Of a stretch of 34,311 bases of DNA, positions 1,828 to 32,702 are shown one piece after another; the first letter of the stretch is position 1, and each line of letters begins with the position of its first letter. Origin of the DNA: Discostella pseudostelligera (lineage: Eukaryota > Bacillariophyta > Thalassiosirophyceae > Thalassiosirales > Thalassiosiraceae); assembly GCA_036940085.1 (NCBI GenBank), contig JALLBK010000361.1, positions 1 to 34,311 of the forward strand, written 5' to 3'. Made by a program: the position numbers and the translations under genes. Under the pieces are notes generated by a model. It saw nothing but the letters and a program-made list of their open reading frames with translations, was not told the DNA's origin and searched no databases.

Positions 1828-2769
1828 ATGCACCAAACACCAATGACAATGACAATGATATTATTGATATTCCATTTCACAACAATAGTATTGGTCTCGA
1901 GTGCGATGACAATGACGATGAAGACCAAGCGCAAGAACAACGCACACTCCGCCGCCGCAACATTCTCTCGGACCACCAGGCCCGGTGTTCAGGATGCCAT
2001 ACGGCTCGTCGCACTCGAGCCAATATCGAACTTTAGACATAGCTGGGAGGTCGCGTCATCGCACTATGATGCAATGGTTCTGGCCAAGGGTGGATCTCGT
2101 CTGGCCGAACTCGATCGACGGAGGGAGGACCTCGCTACGGATTGGAAGACGGCAACAAGCATGACGAAAGATCAGCTGCTGACAATCATCATTGAGTGGA
2201 AATTTTTCAAAGGAAAGCCTCGTCATGCACTCAAACCTCTGCTTCAATCGAATAGCGAAGCATCCGTCATTGCTGCCTCAATATTGGCATTTGCGGCTGC
2301 GAATGCCATTCCGAAAAAGGATAAGGAGAATTGCAACAACAATATTCAGTATCGTGAGAACGACGAAGACACTAAACGGCAAATCATCTCCGCCATCAAT
2401 CACCTATGTGAACTGAAAGGGGTCGGACCTGCCACAGCTTCTGCTATCTTGTGTCTGATACGGCCCGATGTATTTGCATTCATGGATGATGAGGTCATTG
2501 AATCTTTGTTGCCTAATAAGAAGAGAGGATACACCTTGGGAATATACATGGAGGTGAATGATCGATGTCGTGAGATGGCAGACCAATTGAACATGGATAT
2601 GACAAGGAGAAAGAAGAGGAGAAAGACGAATGTTGACGAGGAAGAGAGCGATGATTCCTTATCAGAAGAATGGACGAGTTGCAAAGTAGGCAAGGCAATA
2701 TGGGCGTGTGCGATCATGTCCGCGACAAATGATGAAAATGGTCTCTCGGCAATATTCAATAACAAATGA
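1828..2769 (+). CDS. Helix-hairpin-helix DNA-glycosylase-superfamily-like protein
   Basis: The product has 313 residues. The central part carries a helix-hairpin-helix element (LKGVGPATASAIL, about residues 195-207), followed by a stretch in which Phe, Met and two Asp precede a Glu (FAFMDDEVIESL). Upstream is a conserved-looking block with a Trp-Lys-Phe motif (about 124-160). This order resembles an uncharacterised eukaryotic family related to HhH-GPD base-excision enzymes; the catalytic Lys/Asp of true glycosylases is not obvious, so activity is uncertain. The C-terminus has a Lys/Arg-rich segment followed by an acidic one. I chose the ATG at 1828 because the frame upstream is low in quality and the E2F-like sites lie just before it. 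The first 30 residues are Met/Thr-rich and hydrophobic, which could be a signal or targeting peptide, or a later Met may be the true start. Confidence 0.72.
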   Translation: MHQTPMTMTMILLIFHFTTIVLVSSAMTMTMKTKRKNNAHSAAATFSRTTRPGVQDAIRLVALEPISNFRHSWEVASSHYDAMVLAKGGSRLAELDRRREDLATDWKTATSMTKDQLLTIIIEWKFFKGKPRHALKPLLQSNSEASVIAASILAFAAANAIPKKDKENCNNNIQYRENDEDTKRQIISAINHLCELKGVGPATASAILCLIRPDVFAFMDDEVIESLLPNKKRGYTLGIYMEVNDRCREMADQLNMDMTRRKKRRKTNVDEEESDDSLSEEWTSCKVGKAIWACAIMSATNDENGLSAIFNNK

Positions 2770-7649: not shown

Positions 7650-8381
7650 AGGTATTGTTAAGGAGCAGATAAAGATCGGAGCAATTGCAGTTTGCAATAC
7701 TCTCCTCGACTTCCGTAGTCTGTCGACTGTTGACTCTCTCAACCCCAATAATACGACTGTTTTATTCCAACTTTCACCTAGATCGTTGGTGTTATCATAG
7801 TGAGATGAGATAGGGGGGGCAACAGCCAACTTGCCTATGGAGAAGTTTGGAGATGTGGATACGATACTTGATATTATGATATTATGATATTATGACATCG
7901 ACGATCGATGGCTTCATCGCCATGGTCGACATCATGAAATTCATTTTCATTTGTCATTTCATGGTCCGTCGAAGTAAAAGCAAAAGCAAAAGGGCGGTTC
8001 AAGTTCAAGATAAAGTTGAAGTCATATCCTGATTTGGCGAACATTCATTCCTAATGAATTTCAATGGTACATATGAAATCCCGGTTTAAGTGATAATGAT
8101 GAAGTTGAAGAACCGATGAGATAGCTGGCAGGTGTAGCTTGAAGTTCGTTTTGGCGGGAGCGTCTGTCCAACAAGCGAAGCAAGCTGCACCGCACCATCA
8201 AAAATAAAAACCACATCCCGCCGCCACCCAAACAACAAACAACATCAACATGACCATGAACATCATTACTCCTACTTCTTACTACTACTAAAAGGACATC
8301 TTCCCATCGTCAACGGCAACTCACTCTACGCGGAATAATTTAAACGCCCACAAATATTATATCCACTTGAATTTGTTCATC
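7650..8381. promoter_or_regulatory. Divergent promoter, histidine kinase / G-patch gene
   Basis: This region drives the minus-strand kinase and the plus-strand G-patch gene. It holds TTTTGGCGGGA (8149-8159, E2F-like), an 8-bp tandem repeat of TGATATTA three times at 7869-7892, and a short GCAAAA repeat near 7976-7991. No gene is visible. The 7650-7829 part is open in the kinase frame. Confidence 0.45.
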
Positions 8382-9440
8382 ATGGCATACACCAATCTCT
8401 GCGGCAAGAAGCTCCAAGCCAAATTGGGCGGCTGCCTCAACGAATCTGCAACCTCGCACTCTCCAGCACTCCTATCGTCGCAGCAATCATTTGCCAAACG
8501 CCAGCTCGAAAAAATGGGATGGGAGGAGGGCACTGGCCTCGGCAAGCGACGAAATGGTATACAAGAACACGTGAAGATCAAACAACGCGAGGATGAATTA
8601 GGTCTGGGACGTGAAAAGGAGATGGCGAAAGAGATTGGAAATGTTTGGTGGAAGGATTCGGTGGGCGGGACATTGGCTCGGTTGCAGTTGCGACAGAAAG
8701 AGATGAAGGAGAAGAAGGAGAAGCAAAAAAAGAGCAAGAGGGACAAGGAAGACAGTGAGAAGAAGAAGAGAAAAAAAGACAAACGTAAATCATCATCCAA
8801 GAGAAGTAGTAGCTGTAGTGGATCCGACGACGAAAATTCATCATCGAAAGAAACAACAACTATCATCAAAACTTACACCGACGAAGAATTATTTCAAGCC
8901 ACGGGAGGTGCACGGTTCGGTATGCGTGCTCAAAGACGAGCTGAAGGGAAGTGGAAACGGACTGAATCGGGAAGTAATCTCGTGGAATTGGAAAAGAAGG
9001 CGAAGACGAGCATTGAGTGGAATGGTCGGGGAAACGCGCAGGTGGCGGTGTTAGGAGAGGCAATATCATCATTAGCAGAAGAAGCTGAAGCAAATTGCTC
9101 TACTTCATCAGTGTCACATTCAACTACAAACAAGAAGAGAAAACGAGCGGACGATGTGGATGCGAGTGAGGGTAAGGCATGGGATGCTGCTGCCGTAGTA
9201 AATGGTGAACATGAATTGAAAGAGAAGAAGAGGAAGCAAAAGAAAGAGAATAAGGAACGAAAGTCAGAGAAATCATCGAAGAATATTCACAAGGTATCTC
9301 CGTCGGCATCAGAGGGAGAAGAGGAGGACTGTACGACTGCAATGGATGAGTGCGCTGAGGTCACTAAATCGCCAACAAAGAAGCGCAAAGAGATTAAGAA
9401 GAAGAAGGAAAAGAAGGACAAAAAGAGAAGCAAGAAATAA
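8382..9440 (+). CDS. G-patch nucleolar protein (GPATCH4/PINX1-like)
   Basis: The product has 352 residues in a single exon. The N-terminal G-patch (about residues 30-75) has the typical series of Gly with aromatic and hydrophobic residues (KMGWEEGTGLGKRRNGIQEH). G-patch proteins activate DEAH helicases in ribosome biogenesis and splicing. A second short block (ELFQATGGARFGM, about 165-180) resembles the motif downstream of the G-patch in GPATCH4. The rest is long Lys/Glu/Arg-rich sequence, with many KKK and KRK clusters ending in a fully basic tail, as expected for a nucleolar protein. The ATG at 8382 sits in a good context (ATCATGG); the open frame before it has only a TTG. Its 3' end faces selenoprotein K. 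Confidence 0.8.
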   Translation: MAYTNLCGKKLQAKLGGCLNESATSHSPALLSSQQSFAKRQLEKMGWEEGTGLGKRRNGIQEHVKIKQREDELGLGREKEMAKEIGNVWWKDSVGGTLARLQLRQKEMKEKKEKQKKSKRDKEDSEKKKRKKDKRKSSSKRSSSCSGSDDENSSSKETTTIIKTYTDEELFQATGGARFGMRAQRRAEGKWKRTESGSNLVELEKKAKTSIEWNGRGNAQVAVLGEAISSLAEEAEANCSTSSVSHSTTNKKRKRADDVDASEGKAWDAAAVVNGEHELKEKKRKQKKENKERKSEKSSKNIHKVSPSASEGEEEDCTTAMDECAEVTKSPTKKRKEIKKKKEKKDKKRSKK

Positions 9441-9827
9441 AGCAGCAAGATTTCAATGTGAAATGTTCCATTATATTATAGAATTACAAATCCTCCCCAA
9501 AATGAGTTACGACGCAAGCCGCATCACTCCCCCCATCTATAGATCTTTCGGTCTGGAACGAAAGAGCATTCTCAGCAATTACTCAGGAGTTATCCTTGAA
9601 GAATTGCGTCATTCACATCAATAACCATTTTTGGAAGAACCAAAATCATTAGTCGATTGGCTGCTCTTTACAAAATCCCAGACATTCCCGGTCATCATCC
9701 CACGGTAAGGCCAATTGTATCTTTCTTTGAGAGGGCGACACCATCACCATCATTTAAACCAATAGCAAGGCATCGCTCGAATCAACTTAAAAAGAAACCG
9801 AAAAGTCCTTAACCATAATGATGACCA
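9441..9827. other. Convergent gap holding the selenoprotein K 3' UTR
   Basis: The gap between the G-patch stop and the selenoprotein K stop contains the SECIS-like hairpin. Otherwise only short open frames are seen and none is supported. Confidence 0.6.
9571..9612 (-). promoter_or_regulatory. SECIS element (form II-like) in the selenoprotein K 3' UTR
   Basis: On the minus strand, an ATGA (9612-9609) opens a stem made by GCAATT paired with AATTGC. After 11 bases comes an unpaired AA (9597-9596), then a mini-stem GGA/TCC closing a TAAC loop, then the returning strand and a TGA (9574-9572). This gives the non-Watson-Crick quartet, the conserved AA at the usual distance, and the extra mini-helix of form II SECIS elements. 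It lies about 225 nt past the in-frame UGA at 9837-9839. The outer helix I is not clear by eye. Confidence 0.75.
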
Positions 9828-10317
9828 TTACCGTCCTCACCCACCTGCAGGATTGTTGGCACAACCTAATTGATTTACGCGACGGATATTGGAGCCACTA
9901 CCACCCTCACCACGAGTACTACTGCCTGAACCTGATCCTCCACCGGCTCCCCCACTACGACGAATACCTTGACGTTGGGCGTAGGTGGTCTGTCGCCGTC
10001 CCTTTGAATTTTGTCGCATTTCAATTATTGTAGGTGTAACGGGTCCGGTGGAAATTATTTTGCCATGTTTATGTTAGAGATTTCAGAGTGTGATATCTTT
10101 CACTAAAAATCATACGCCATGCAGAAAATCAAATTCACCCCCTCTCTCTTCAAACACTCACCCGCTCATGCTCCAAGGCAGCCTGACTAGTTGTCAACGT
10201 TCTAAAAAATATTCCAATAAAATCGAACACTGCCACAACCCAATCTCGAAGTAAGGAGAGTCCCCACTTCCGCTTTTTTGTGTCGGAGACGGTCCCCTCT
10301 GATGTGATGTACACCAT
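9828..10317 (-). CDS. SELENOK: Selenoprotein K (UGA-encoded selenocysteine)
   Basis: Two exons: 10317-10162 (52 codons) and 10001-9828 (57 codons plus TAA). The intron (10002-10161) is 160 bp with donor GTGAGT and an acceptor ending AAAG, and joins them in phase 0. The 109-residue product starts MVYITSEG, has one membrane helix (about residues 18-41, WGLSLLRDWVVAVFDFIG), and a Gly/Ser/Arg-rich cytosolic tail ending RRVNQLG-CANNPAGG-U-GR. The TGA at 9837-9839 is followed by GGA CGG TAA. This matches the SelK family in its MVY start, WxLS, FFxTL and the closing AGGUGR with Sec third from last. SelK is an ER membrane protein linked to ER-associated degradation and palmitoylation. A SECIS-like hairpin follows at 9571-9612. 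Ordinary gene calling would stop at the UGA and miss exon 1. Confidence 0.93.
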
Positions 10318-10658
10318 GGATAATAATATGCAATTGATTCTGTACGAGTGCAGAGATTATGATGATAATAGTATGATAGTACTAGACTATCGAACATGAG
10401 TAGTCAGGGCTGGCTCCGACGGAAATGGAAATCTATCGTCAATGCTCTTTCCGGCAAGCAGCACTTCCCGCTAAATCCTTCCCGCCAACCTAAAACAACA
10501 GAAACTTTGATGCACACACACATAACACACAAACCACATGATGGACCACGGTGACATGCCGCCGCCGGCCCCCGTATCATTGCATCCACAACATAAACAT
10601 CAACAAGCAGCCTTCTTCAGCATCCACTCGATCATCTTCTTGAATACCAATATATATC
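10318..10658. promoter_or_regulatory. Divergent promoter, selenoprotein K / unknown gene
   Basis: This 341-bp promoter carries TTCCCGCTAAA (from 10465) and TTCCCGCCAA (10479-10488), two E2F-like elements 14 bp apart. No further gene is visible in it. Confidence 0.45.
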
Positions 10659-17240: not shown

Positions 17241-20200
17241 TTACTTCTTGTCATCTTCCTTTGGTAAGCAATTCTCCAGAACTGCCCTCTTCATCACACC
17301 GTACGGGGCCGTCCTACCGGTCCATAATTCGAACTGTCCCACCCCCTGTTCCCATAACATTTCGGACCCACGTACAACATCGCACCCATTTTCGGATGCT
17401 TGGAGAAGTAACGCCGTGTTGTATGGTTTGTAATTGACATCAAACACAATGGGTAGAGGGTGGCTACTGATGCCCGAGTGGAGCATCCATTCGGGGAGTT
17501 GAAACTCGGCAGATGCAGGGAGCGTGCTAAGGACTACCTTGACTATTCCCTTGTTCTTGGAAAGTATCTCTCCGAGCGAGTTGCTGTCATTGTCTGATTC
17601 ACTATTGGTATTGTCGAGACTTGTCGCCACAATGCCACCGAATTCCTTCGCTAGATCCATGGCCTTCTCTGGAGTTCGATTGAAATATATGCGCTCGAGA
17701 CCCAACTTCGATGCCGCATAGGCAGCAGCACGCGCGGTGCCACCACCACCAAGAATTAGTGCATATTTGGTAGCAGTACCGCCCTTGCCTTTTCTACCGG
17801 TGTTGTTGTCATCATCGCCAAGCCTACGCTGCAAAGGATTATATATTCCTCTCCAATCGGTGTTGTCCCCTATCAATACTCTTGTTCCGAACTTATCCTT
17901 CTTCACAATAACAGTATTCACACTCCCAATTTCTTTCGCCGCATCTGTCAAGACATCTACATGGGGAATGATGTTCTGCTTGTGTGGGATAGTCACGGAA
18001 CATCCACCAAAATGTTCGTCATTCCATATTGGCCCCTCGATGAATTCCTCTACCGTCTCGACGTCGGCACGCGAATAGCTATGTGGTAATTTGACTGCCG
18101 CGAAGGCACTACCCTGCATTTGGGGGCTGACGCTGTAGGCAATATTATGTCCCAAAATGGCATACCGCTCCGTGGGTACCATCCCAGTGATAACACGTGC
18201 GGCCATAATTTCGGCCGCGGTCAATTGTCCCGGTGCCGCCTTGGACGGCAGGCACTCGTGTGTAACAGGAGTGAAGCGTGGATTGAGTATGCGAGAGTAC
18301 GATCCATCCTCGCCCAGTGTCAGTCCAATGCTGGGTATTTCCGGTTCGTCCAATTTGGATGCCGCCATCGATGCCTTATATGCCAATTGATCCTCGTCAT
18401 TATCATTGGAGTTGATACTGAGCACAACCTTCGCCCCGTGCGCACGATTGTTCATCCGACATTGTCGGAATAGTTGAATGGCCTCCTCCATCGAGACTTC
18501 GGTACCAATAACGTGATGACTTCCCAATATCAATGATGTGTATCGCTGCTTTGCCTTGCGTAACAACTTATCCGTAAGAGATGCGTCCCATGCACTCTCT
18601 ACATCTAATACTTCTACGGCACTGCGCAATCCCAATTCTAACAATTGGAACATGTGCCGGATGCCATCATCGTCATCTGGCCACGTCCCAGCCTGGTGGG
18701 CAGTGCGGACGGTGTACACGATTGGTAGGGCATCGTCGATGCTGCCTGATCCTGCAAATGGCAACGCAGGTGCACTGATTCAATGGAGAGAGGGAGAGCA
18801 AGTAGAGTGACGAAGAAATGGCGTGAGCAAATAATGATGCGAGATGAAGACGTGATATCATCAACGTAAGCATTGACAACACCACCAGATGGGGCTATGT
18901 ATCGGTACAAGTCAACAACGTTACATAATTCACTCACCGTTGTGCATGCGGCCGACAGAGTGCACGTAAACGTTGCTGTTGATAGAGAATATCAAACCTC
19001 GGATCATCACCATCACTATTGCAAGAGTCAGCATTATTCTCATCACTGCTCTTCATCGATAAATAATCTCTGGCCGCCGATAACAAATCAACACGATACT
19101 CCATCGAATCCACATCTTGACACATTTGTTCGACATAGGGTGAAGCGTCCTCGACTTTTGGAAACGACAAACTGAGGAAGAAGGTATTCTTTCCCATTGT
19201 TAGATCCGCATTATTGTTCGGTGCGGTACTTCCAGTGTCGCCCACGACGGGAGACGGGAGGAGGGCACGCGCAATGATTCGTTGCAGTTCCCATTCCATA
19301 TCCTCCCAAGACGATCCATTCTCCACAGTCTTTTGTGATGTCTCTACAATTCCCTCATTTTTGATGCACAATTCATAATCTGAAAATGGAATCAATACCT
19401 CCTCTTCGATCATTTGTTTCCGTTCCTTGGCATCGTCAATCATCATTCCTTCTCCATCGGGCTGTACATTCACATATACCGATAATAGTTTCTCATCCTC
19501 ATACAGTTCTTTTGCTACCATCCCCAATGCCCGTATCAAGTCTACTTCATACTCTTTCGATATGTCAAATGCAGCATGATTGAAATCAATAACAAGGACA
19601 CCGGTTGTGAGTGTAAGAGTCTTTTCGCGAATGAGATCACGGATTAGTTCGGCATCGAATACAAATGGTCCTTCGTCATCAAGCCCTATTGTTGAGAGGG
19701 AGATACCCGTGACTGTAGTACTACTGCTTCCGTCGGACGATGGTTGGCTACTGCTATTGCTGCTTGTGTTGTCATCATCGTCGTCCTCACCCAGGAATAT
19801 CGCACCCTGACTCCGTTGCAAACCCTCCAAGGTATCTTGTACTTTCTTAGCACCGCCTACCGCCAATAATGCTCCACTCAATGAAAGAGCCAAACGTTGC
19901 AATTCATTATTGGATGGTGAAGAGGATAGACCGAGGAGTACAATTGGTTTGTTGTAGTTTTCAAATAGATACTTTACGGTGGATGGTTGGGATGATGATG
20001 ATGATGACTTTTTGGGTTTCTTCTTTTTGGTGGATGATGTCGATGAATCGTCGGTGTCAGATTGAGTTTTCGAGGAGGATGCGCACAATGGAGAGATAGA
20101 ATTAGAGCGGTGGCGTTGATGAAACGGCACACTGCCATGCGCCGCCGCCACAGCCGACGACGACGGCGTCTTCATTGCGAAAGCCACCAATGATGTTTGC

Positions 20201-27091: not shown

Positions 27092-28731
27092 ATGACTGAT
27101 ACCGAAATCGAAAAGTCCCCCGAGGGCGCCCACGACGTCGAGCTCACTCCGCTCCTGCTGTTCAAATACCTTTTATCCGTTTGTGTCCTGCTCTTTTCCA
27201 TCATCCTCGTTGGCGCGCTCATGTTCACCGGTAACACCCGTGTCGCCAAAGAGACCAACCCGTGGGTCGCCTTGATTGTTTGCGTGAGTGCACTTTTGTC
27301 TTCGTTGATCTTTTTGTTTGTGCTACAAAAGAGCCGCTTTCTATTCGTCTCCCGACGCTAAATCTTGATGCGCCATGCGCCTCGATTCCACCAAACCAAC
27401 AGATCGCGGCCATCATTTGGCTCACCATGATTGAGGGACAACAGGCATCCCTCGTTGGTCTCCCCCCCGTCGATCCCATGCTATACAAGGACAGCCACCC
27501 GATAACGTACAAGAACGGTGCCGTGGCCTTCAAGGGGGACAACCTTGACCGTTACCTCATGGGACGTCAGTTCATGGTGCTGATGGTTGTCTTTGTTATC
27601 AACCAGTGCGGCCAGCCCCTCGACCCCACGGTCGATGTCCTCGGCATGCCCGATTGGGTCAAGTTCGTCTTCCTCGACATCGGACTTGGTATGATCGTTT
27701 TCACCTGCGTGCTCGGACAGCTACACACCCAGGTCAATGCCACCCACTGCATGATCGACTTCATAAACAACTACTTCGCCCTATTCACCCTGTACACGGC
27801 CATGTGCGTCGAATTTACCGGCATCATGCACAGCGCGTACCTCATCCAGAACCTCATGTCCGCTGTGTCTGGCAAGCCGATCATCTCTAACGAGGAGCCC
27901 AAGACTGGTTTCACATTGGTGTTTTTCTGGGCTCGCGTCCTCGTGTCCTTGTGCATTCTTGGGTTCTGCATGGCCGTGGTCATGGTAGCCCTCGTCAACG
28001 GAGACACCATGGTTGCCGTCAAGTACCCAGATATCTCGGTCGGCCTTTCCATCTTCTTATTCTTCTTCTTTATGTCCGTCGTTGGCACGCTCGAGGCAAT
28101 GCAAATCGCCTACTTCTGCTCGGCAAAGCTCACGTGGGAAGAACGCGCGCAGGGTATCTTTGGCAAGAAGACTAACCACATACTCTTCGACGGAAACGGG
28201 CGTAACCTCCCAGGATTCATGATCGGGCGTCAGCTCACCGTTGTCGCCAGTTTCTTCCTCGTCGCCTCCATCACCGGCCTTAACATCACGCCTGGCGAGG
28301 GCAACAACATCTTCGGTATTTCCGATGGTGCCCAACAGTTCTTGAACTTCGGTTTGCACGGTGCCGTCATCACCACCATCCTTGCCTCCATCACCTGGCA
28401 ATACGCTGCATCGGCCTTTCCCAACGCCTTCGTGAACAGTCCCATCACCTACGTCCTCCTCATCCTCGCCCTGTGCCTCGAGGGGACCGGAATCTGCCAC
28501 GGCGCCTGGGTCATCGCCAAAGTCATGAAGAAGGTCTGCAAGCTCCAGTACGACGAGGTATACGTCGGCACCCCCGAGGAGCGCATGGCCAGCAGCAAAC
28601 CAGACAAGGAGATGACCCCTGCCCAGGATGTCGGTCATCTGACGGGAGGTGGATTCGCCGGATTCGCGTGCGGATCTCACGATCCCCTTGACGGCCCCAT
28701 CCGCTCCAAGGATGCCATGGAAGCCCCTTAG
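27092..28731 (+). CDS. SIT: Silicic-acid transporter
   Basis: Two exons (27092-27283, 27403-28731) with a 119-bp intron (GTGAGT...AACAG, phase 0) give 506 residues. SITs import silicic acid with Na+ across the diatom plasma membrane for the cell wall. The protein has about ten hydrophobic segments in two five-helix halves. The paired GXQ motifs of the family are visible: EGQQ (75-78) with GRQ (118-120), and in the second half EAMQ (295-298) with GRQ (339-341), at nearly equal spacing (43 and 44). The second motif has Ala where EGXQ is usual. CMID at 180-183 corresponds to the CMLD motif described for SITs. The C-terminal tail is hydrophilic. Codons are strongly C-ending (GTC, CTC, ATC), as in a highly expressed gene. 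The splice falls just before the first GXQ motif. Confidence 0.95.
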
Positions 28732-31049: not shown

Positions 31050-32702
31050 ATGAGGACTCTCGCTACCGCCGCCCTCCTTGTGGCATCATCATCATCGTCG
31101 TCACCGTTGCTGGTGGCCAATGGATTCGGTTTCACGAGCCCAACGGCGGCAACAGTAGACCATCGTCGTCGTCATAGTCATCGCGATGCACCGTCGTCAT
31201 CGTCGACGTCACTGCACATGGCAAGCAAACACAAGTCAAAGGTTGCATCGCGAACGATCTGGGCCGAATCTCGTGGTTTTGGTTCTGCTGGTACTACCAC
31301 CCTCTCTTCATCATCGTCCGTCGCATCATCATCATCTTCATCTTCGGGGGGCATGACATTTGAAATCGACTCGACACAAAATCAACTCACCGTCACACCC
31401 ATCACCTCCCTTGATGGCACTGTAACCCTGCCTGGTTCCAAATCTCTCTCCAATCGTTGTCTTCTCCTGGCAGCATTAAGCGAGGGCACTGCCCGTGTTG
31501 AGAATTTATTAGAGAGTGATGATATTCGATACATGCTCGAGGCACTGGATACATTGCGCGTACATGTCGAACGGGATGCCAATGATCCTACCTGCGTCAC
31601 TGTTACTGGTCAAGCTGGTCCGATTCATTCACCTACTCCTGATTCATCCTTGGAATTATTCTTGGGGAATGCTGGAACTGCCATGAGACCCCTCGCTGCG
31701 GCATTATGTATGGGGAATGGCAAATTTGTATTGGACGGAGTGCCACGCATGAGAGAACGGCCCATTGCCGATTTGATCGATGGTCTGCAACAACTTGGTG
31801 CCGATGTCACATGTGTCGAAAGCACAGGATGTCCTCCTGTTACCATTAGTGCCCAAAAGCTCGTGGGTGATAAAAAGGCCAGCATCTCGGGAAAAATGTC
31901 ATCGCAGTTCCTATCCTCCTTGCTTATGGCATCCCCATTGATTGATGGCGAGGTTACCATCTCCATCAAGGATGAATTAATCTCGGCACCGTATGTTTCA
32001 TTGACCATTGGCTTGATGAAGAAGTTTGGTGCGAATGTACGCATTGAGGGAGATATGTCTGGAACGCCTTCGTTTATCATCGGTGCAAATGAAAAGTACA
32101 CATCGCCCAATTCCATCTTGGTCGAGGGTGATGCTAGCAGTGCTAGTTATTTCTTGGCTGGTGCCGCCATTACCGGTGGAACAGTTACCGTACGTGGATG
32201 TGGATCGGACAGTGTCCAAGGAGATGTGGCATTTGCCAACGTTATGGAACAGATGGGTGCTACGGTAACTTGGGCACCCGAAAGTATTACCATTACACGT
32301 GACCCCGCTGTTCGACTGCGAGGTGTCGATGTCGATTGTGGGAAGATACCCGATGCAGCCATGACACTTGCCGTGGCAGCATTGTTTGCCGAAGGCCCCA
32401 CGACGATACGCAATGTTTACTCGTGGCGATTGAAGGAGACAGAACGCATGAAGGCGATTGTGGCAGAATGTACCAAGCTCGGTGGTACCGTGGAGGAATT
32501 TACCGATTATTGTGTGATTCATCCACCCAAGGATAATGTATTGAATGACAATGTACTCATTGAGACATATGATGATCATAGGATGGCAATGACATTTGCC
32601 TTGGCGGCATGTGGGGGTGTGAATGTTCGGATTCATGATCCTGGTTGTACGGCCAAGACTTTCCCAACCTATTTTGACGTTTTGGGAAGTATTGCAAGTT
32701 AA
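31050..32702 (+). CDS. Plastid 3-phosphoshikimate 1-carboxyvinyltransferase (EPSP synthase)
   Basis: The product has 550 residues, single exon, ATG at 31050. It joins shikimate-3-phosphate and phosphoenolpyruvate, step 6 of the shikimate pathway. The first 25 residues are a signal peptide followed by VANGFGF, an ASAFAP-like site, then a Ser/His/Arg-rich transit peptide, so the plastid is the likely site. The enzyme proper starts near residue 110 and is complete: PGSKSLSNR (about 128-136), FLGNAGTAMRPL (204-215), PRMRERPI, SSQFLSSLLMA, DELISAPYV, EGDASSASYF, DCGKIPDAAM, RLKETERM and DDHRMAM. The LGNAGTAMRP loop is of the ordinary class I type. Step 3/4 enzyme of the same pathway lies about 11 kb upstream. 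Confidence 0.95.
   Translation: MRTLATAALLVASSSSSSPLLVANGFGFTSPTAATVDHRRRHSHRDAPSSSSTSLHMASKHKSKVASRTIWAESRGFGSAGTTTLSSSSSVASSSSSSSGGMTFEIDSTQNQLTVTPITSLDGTVTLPGSKSLSNRCLLLAALSEGTARVENLLESDDIRYMLEALDTLRVHVERDANDPTCVTVTGQAGPIHSPTPDSSLELFLGNAGTAMRPLAAALCMGNGKFVLDGVPRMRERPIADLIDGLQQLGADVTCVESTGCPPVTISAQKLVGDKKASISGKMSSQFLSSLLMASPLIDGEVTISIKDELISAPYVSLTIGLMKKFGANVRIEGDMSGTPSFIIGANEKYTSPNSILVEGDASSASYFLAGAAITGGTVTVRGCGSDSVQGDVAFANVMEQMGATVTWAPESITITRDPAVRLRGVDVDCGKIPDAAMTLAVAALFAEGPTTIRNVYSWRLKETERMKAIVAECTKLGGTVEEFTDYCVIHPPKDNVLNDNVLIETYDDHRMAMTFALAACGGVNVRIHDPGCTAKTFPTYFDVLGSIAS

Follow-up and report, generated by a model that had tools for sequence, protein, structure and literature searches.

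The window analysed here comprises 34,311 nt of Discostella pseudostelligera DNA (assembly GCA_036940085.1, contig JALLBK010000361.1) and carries, at 10317-9828 of the minus strand, a two-exon gene of the selenoprotein K (SelK) family encoding 109 residues in one spliced frame, with a candidate SECIS hairpin downstream and a convergent G-patch gene beyond it (Table 1). When the intron is left in place, translation runs three codons into it before hitting a stop, whereas in the spliced frame the UGA at 9839-9837 is the sole internal stop, followed by GGA CGG TAA, which with selenocysteine (Sec) at the UGA gives a GGUGR ending and a product of the form MVYITSEG...AGG-U-GR. SelK proteins start with MVY and end in a GGUGR tail. 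A first-pass annotation of this DNA had proposed two in-phase exons with GT-AG borders, at coordinates that turned out to be correct to the single base, and had read the tail GG-TGA-GGA-CGG-TAA as GGUGR, which the spliced translation confirmed.

Table 1. Features of the SelK locus and its convergent neighbour (positions in the window)
Feature	Position	Strand	Description	Basis
SelK exon 1	10162..10317	-	156 nt, residues 1-52, MVYI start, predicted membrane helix at about 22-38	translation, Pfam, alignment, hydropathy
SelK intron	10002..10161	-	160 nt, GTGAGT...AAAG, phase 0	junction agrees with joined relatives P0001-P0006
SelK exon 2	9828..10001	-	174 nt, Gly/Arg-rich tail ending AGG-U-GR	aligned to P0001-P0007
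Predicted selenocysteine codon UGA	9837..9839	-	residue 107 of 109, third from end	
Predicted true stop TAA	9828..9830	-		spliced-frame translation
SECIS candidate, type II-like	9571..9612	-	225 nt downstream of UGA	scans, leave-one-out covariance model, fold
G-patch protein ORF	8367..9440	+	convergent neighbour, outside SelK	ORF; PF01585, 45.6 bits

The encoded protein has the general composition of the family, with glycine making up 30% of the residues after position 52 and 16 K/R against 7 D/E over its whole length. Membrane segments were called from hydropathy averages in a 17-residue window, and these revealed one hydrophobic stretch, with a best mean of 1.73 at residues 22-38 and with R24, D25 and D32 inside it, making a single membrane helix plausible but marginal.

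The assignment to SelK made in the first-pass annotation was borne out by both profile and homologue searches. The Pfam family SelK_SelG (PF10961) matched residues 2-86 of the spliced product at 40.8 bits, against a cut-off of 23.3, and exon 1 on its own was the only match to this family in a six-frame search of the 23.0-Mb genome (963 contigs); an 861-base DNA query matched itself only, indicating a single copy. Among 55 scored candidates, 12 homologues passed E <= 0.01 (best 7.4e-35), and those whose names were visible were called 'hypothetical protein' or 'RDD domain-containing' or bore transcript numbers, the named sources being Stephanodiscus triporus (P0001) and Thalassiosira punctigera (P0006, taxon 265564). 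Ten of the 12 were taken into the alignment, leaving out P0009 and P0012, and 26 columns were invariant among the 11 aligned sequences; the glycine/serine stretch of the Discostella protein is longer than in its aligned relatives. Of the two omitted, P0009, a 60-residue entry with seven member sequences, equals exon 2 as the window encodes it, which is the glycine-rich ORF ending at TGA that standard annotation had been expected to yield, and P0012 matches weakly and only in part (63% identity over 17%) and ends differently. A search of the PDB with SelK produced a best E of 0.066, in low-complexity parts only, and none of 597 pattern matches among genome contigs or 600 among viral contigs, searched for the DNA of relatives, encoded a relative.

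Seven homologues (P0001-P0007) contain both halves of the protein, and six of these (P0001-P0006, with 62-73% identity in the aligned part) share the junction between ER and G of the gene described here, which reads ER-GRRQTT where the joined relatives read ER-GHRRTT or ER-GRRRTT. Three of the six (P0003, P0004 and P0006) have transcript-collection sources or names. In P0008, P0010 and P0011, the same ER is followed by V-S, as an unspliced intron starting with GT would read. Furthermore, the 52 residues of exon 1 are identical in P0003, which comes from a transcript collection, and P0011, and the two diverge only past the junction (GHRRTT versus VSIF), so that in this relative the intron is seen removed. 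The seventh homologue, P0007 (20 member sequences), reads on through its retained intron, so that the 130-residue entry contains a spurious insert, and its identity in the aligned part is 47%. The one feature that could point to a pseudogene, or to chance as the source of the exon pairing or of the resemblance to SelK, is the 3' splice region, where inspection of the sequence revealed no clear pyrimidine tract, but the homologue E-values, the intact frame, the junctions matching in six of seven relatives and the above-threshold SelK_SelG score, which contradicts chance likeness, leave this explanation with a negligible probability.

All seven of these homologues end exactly at AGG, the position at which the gene described here has UGA. 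An alternative to be weighed is a SelK gene that has lost Sec, in which UGA would be an ordinary stop, the product would comprise 106 residues ending in AGG, and the GGA CGG TAA and the hairpin would be relics or chance. This is how the seven entries were deposited and how pipelines read them, and Sec insertion at the Discostella codon is itself something we infer. However, the stop falls on the same residue in all seven relatives despite variable glycine tracts, the pattern expected of an unread Sec, and the probability of Gly-Arg-stop directly following UGA in the family position by chance is about 3e-4 (a hand estimate assuming uniform codons). Two further lines of evidence against Sec loss, the SECIS candidate and the Sec machinery of the genome, are presented below, and in view of all four we consider this alternative very unlikely.

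The SECIS candidate consists of an A-UGAC quartet strand, a helix formed by GCAAUUCUUC and GAGUAAUUGC (9 of 10 pairs), an unpaired AA, an apical mini-stem GGA-UAAC-UCC, and a UGAG quartet strand. The SECIS criteria given in PMC2375036 are an NTGA, 10-13 nt to an unpaired AA and 15-39 nt to a GA, a shape fitted by the 11 nt from NTGA to AA and about 22 nt on to GA in the candidate. In a scan with generic SECIS rules, position 9612 on the minus strand was one of four matches in the window; such a generic pattern is too loose to serve as proof, matching 36 of 1000 shuffles of the SelK 3' stretch. A narrower pattern, in which AATGAC, helix, AA, helix and TGA follow one another, matched at 9613; when the 387-nt 3' stretch was shuffled 20000 times with its dinucleotides preserved, it occurred in 43 of the shuffles, and in 3 when at least 9 of 10 pairs were required, as observed here; a further match in the window, at 500 on the plus strand, has 7 of 10 pairs. 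The minimum-energy fold of the candidate leaves just one of the two bulge adenines unpaired, and folding energy was discarded as a proof of SECIS identity (z -1.41, with 17 of 200 shuffles folding equally well). The Rfam model SECIS_1 had no match at E <= 10 in 9300-10400, where five weak matches to unrelated families were obtained (best E 0.25), nor anywhere in the genome, and was set aside as insensitive because no control matched it either. The first-pass annotation had pointed to 9480-9830 of the minus strand as the place to search for a SECIS and had named the lack of one in the 3' UTR as an outcome that would speak against its reading; a candidate does lie in that interval, at 9612-9571, within what is predicted to be the 3' UTR.

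More specific support for the hairpin came from a covariance model, R1, built from six SECIS candidates of the same genome, those of GPx, SelW2 (two), SPS2 (two) and MsrA, with SelK left out. These training elements are themselves candidates picked by scanning, and they were used without their apical middle because MAFFT misaligned the 3' arms of the whole elements. R1 ranked 9621-9567 first among 15 matches in the window at E <= 10, with 24.7 bits and E 1.8e-4, compared to 14.2 bits and E 0.11 for the next-best match (E-values being rough). Thus, the element was found by a model that had never seen it, which argues against the loss of Sec at this gene. Across 14 further loci, the best R1 match was the stretch downstream of SelW1 (18.1 bits, E 0.014 with default filters); with filters off, SelW1 gave 11.4 bits (E 0.23) and SelM 14.0 bits (E 0.046).

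The candidates downstream of GPx (L005), SelW2 (L011, two) and SPS2 (L022, two) each begin with AATGAC, and the SECIS candidates of this genome share a core that the Rfam SECIS model misses. The AATGAC-core pattern matched 6 of 24 loci, all of them Sec loci, namely SelK (L001), GPx, SelW2, SPS2 (L013 and the overlapping L022) and L018. Among the 18 loci in which it had no match are L010, L012, L020 and L021, which are the Sec genes SelW1 and SelM, that is, misses of the pattern. L018 is one of six MsrA loci and the only one marked by the pattern, the other five having Cys and no match; there is no stop within its matched stretch, and reading upstream revealed G-stop-FW, with TGA at the active site. 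A Sec-MsrA gene (G-UGA-FW) was in this way uncovered via the SECIS pattern at L018:1354 and L018:1946-1994 (+).

Several of these loci have features of their own. Two successive SECIS candidates, both with GCTGTGAATGACGAGA, lie at L011:2150-2189 and 2255-2297 (+), following the stop at 2053 of an Rdx gene (SelW/T type) that contains an in-frame TGA. Similarly, the 3' region of SPS2 on the reverse strand of L022, from 104 onward, holds two SECIS candidates after a stop at 240. This SPS2 stretch occurs in tandem, offset by 877 nt and identical over 879 positions, reflecting either a recent duplication or an assembly artefact.

The genome also encodes components of the machinery for making and inserting Sec, which likewise weighs against an ordinary stop at the SelK UGA. 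We identified tRNA-Sec (77.9 bits; called as tRNA-SeC with anticodon tca by ARAGORN), SepSecS (326.6 bits), SPS2 with an in-frame TGA of its own (209.1 bits) and eEFSec (63.9 bits); a second eEFSec piece is interrupted by stops, perhaps because the match spans an intron. Further genes with in-frame TGA are GPx, two Rdx genes of the SelW/T type, and SelM.

The original reading of the locus as selenoprotein K is therefore supported by the family match, the exon structure, the position of the UGA, the SECIS candidate and the Sec machinery. What the sequence itself displays is the match to the family, the exon frame, the UGA-Gly-Arg-stop tail, the hairpin motif and the Sec-insertion genes elsewhere in the genome, and from these we conclude with high confidence that 10317-9828 of the minus strand is a diatom SelK gene whose UGA is likely decoded as Sec with the help of the predicted SECIS hairpin. 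Annotation that takes this UGA as a stop would shorten the protein.

In eukaryotes, SECIS-bound factors let tRNA-Sec read UGA as Sec. The SelK intron would be spliced out here as in the relatives, leaving an mRNA in which the hairpin follows the UGA at a distance of 225 nt, and a SECIS-binding protein, eEFSec and tRNA-Sec would recode the codon. The product would be a single-pass protein of the ER membrane whose disordered tail, rich in Gly and Arg and bearing the Sec, would reach into the cytosol, and by extension from animal work it might have a role in ER-associated degradation, in acyltransferase complexes or in the response to ER stress. As a rule, termination competes with the recoding of UGA as Sec, and stopping at this UGA, so close to the end, would lose only three residues. 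The gene could thus yield two products, a truncated one of 106 residues and a Sec form of 109, in proportions set by selenium supply, an idea that we regard as possible but doubtful.

The predicted diatom protein shares with SELENOK/SelK (the G-rich protein of Drosophila; PF10961) the MVYI start, a Gly/Arg-rich tail, a predicted Sec third from the end and, if its marginal hydrophobic stretch is one, an N-terminal membrane segment, and PMC10650576 likewise describes SelK as having an N-terminal membrane segment, a Gly/Arg-rich tail and Sec second or third from the C-terminus, in animals located in the ER and involved in the stress response, calcium signalling and a complex with the acyltransferase DHHC6. 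Its SECIS candidate, in contrast, is of a diatom type. Compared to the thalassiosiroid members of the family, including those of Stephanodiscus triporus and Thalassiosira punctigera, the gene has the same junction and the same AGG, but the entries seen stop before the predicted Sec. Sec-containing SelK has precedents in unicellular eukaryotes: Table 2 of PMC2375036 lists SelK for Ostreococcus and Dictyostelium, as well as for Drosophila pseudoobscura, and PMC7238072 names SelK1 of a microalga beside GPx and SelW homologues. According to PMC7539508, SELENOK is among the least widespread of the algal Sec families and occurs almost only in the Sec form. The 2007 table for T. pseudonana gives 16 selenoproteins with SelK left blank (Table 2 of PMC2375036), and our literature search found no report of a diatom SelK, although Fig. 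5 and the supplements of PMC7539508 may list one. Within the literature found, the Discostella gene thus adds to an old and wide family a member from a group lacking a record.

Extending this to the thalassiosiroid diatoms as a group, we consider it somewhat more probable than the contrary that they carry a Sec-ending SelK that is cut at the UGA in gene catalogues and was missed by the 2007 T. pseudonana survey, and that their SECIS elements share an order-specific A-AUGA(C) core, such that a model built from one genome could be used to find missed selenoproteins. If so, seven homologue clusters, some from transcript collections, would lack their one redox-active residue, estimates of how much selenium bloom-forming centric diatoms require would be too low, a blank in the published distribution of SelK would be filled, and a same-genome SECIS model, by which a second Sec gene, MsrA, was recognised, would be at hand.

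The stop of the convergent G-patch gene and the SECIS candidate lie 131 nt apart (window 9440-9571), so that the 3' UTRs of this gene and SelK may overlap, in which case the antisense 3' UTR of the G-patch gene could mask the SECIS. Elsewhere in the window, a 3-dehydroquinase/shikimate dehydrogenase fusion (17241-18764, minus strand) and an EPSP synthase (31050-32702, plus strand) place two shikimate-pathway genes on one contig, with a silicon transporter (27262-28731, 690.5 bits) located between them.
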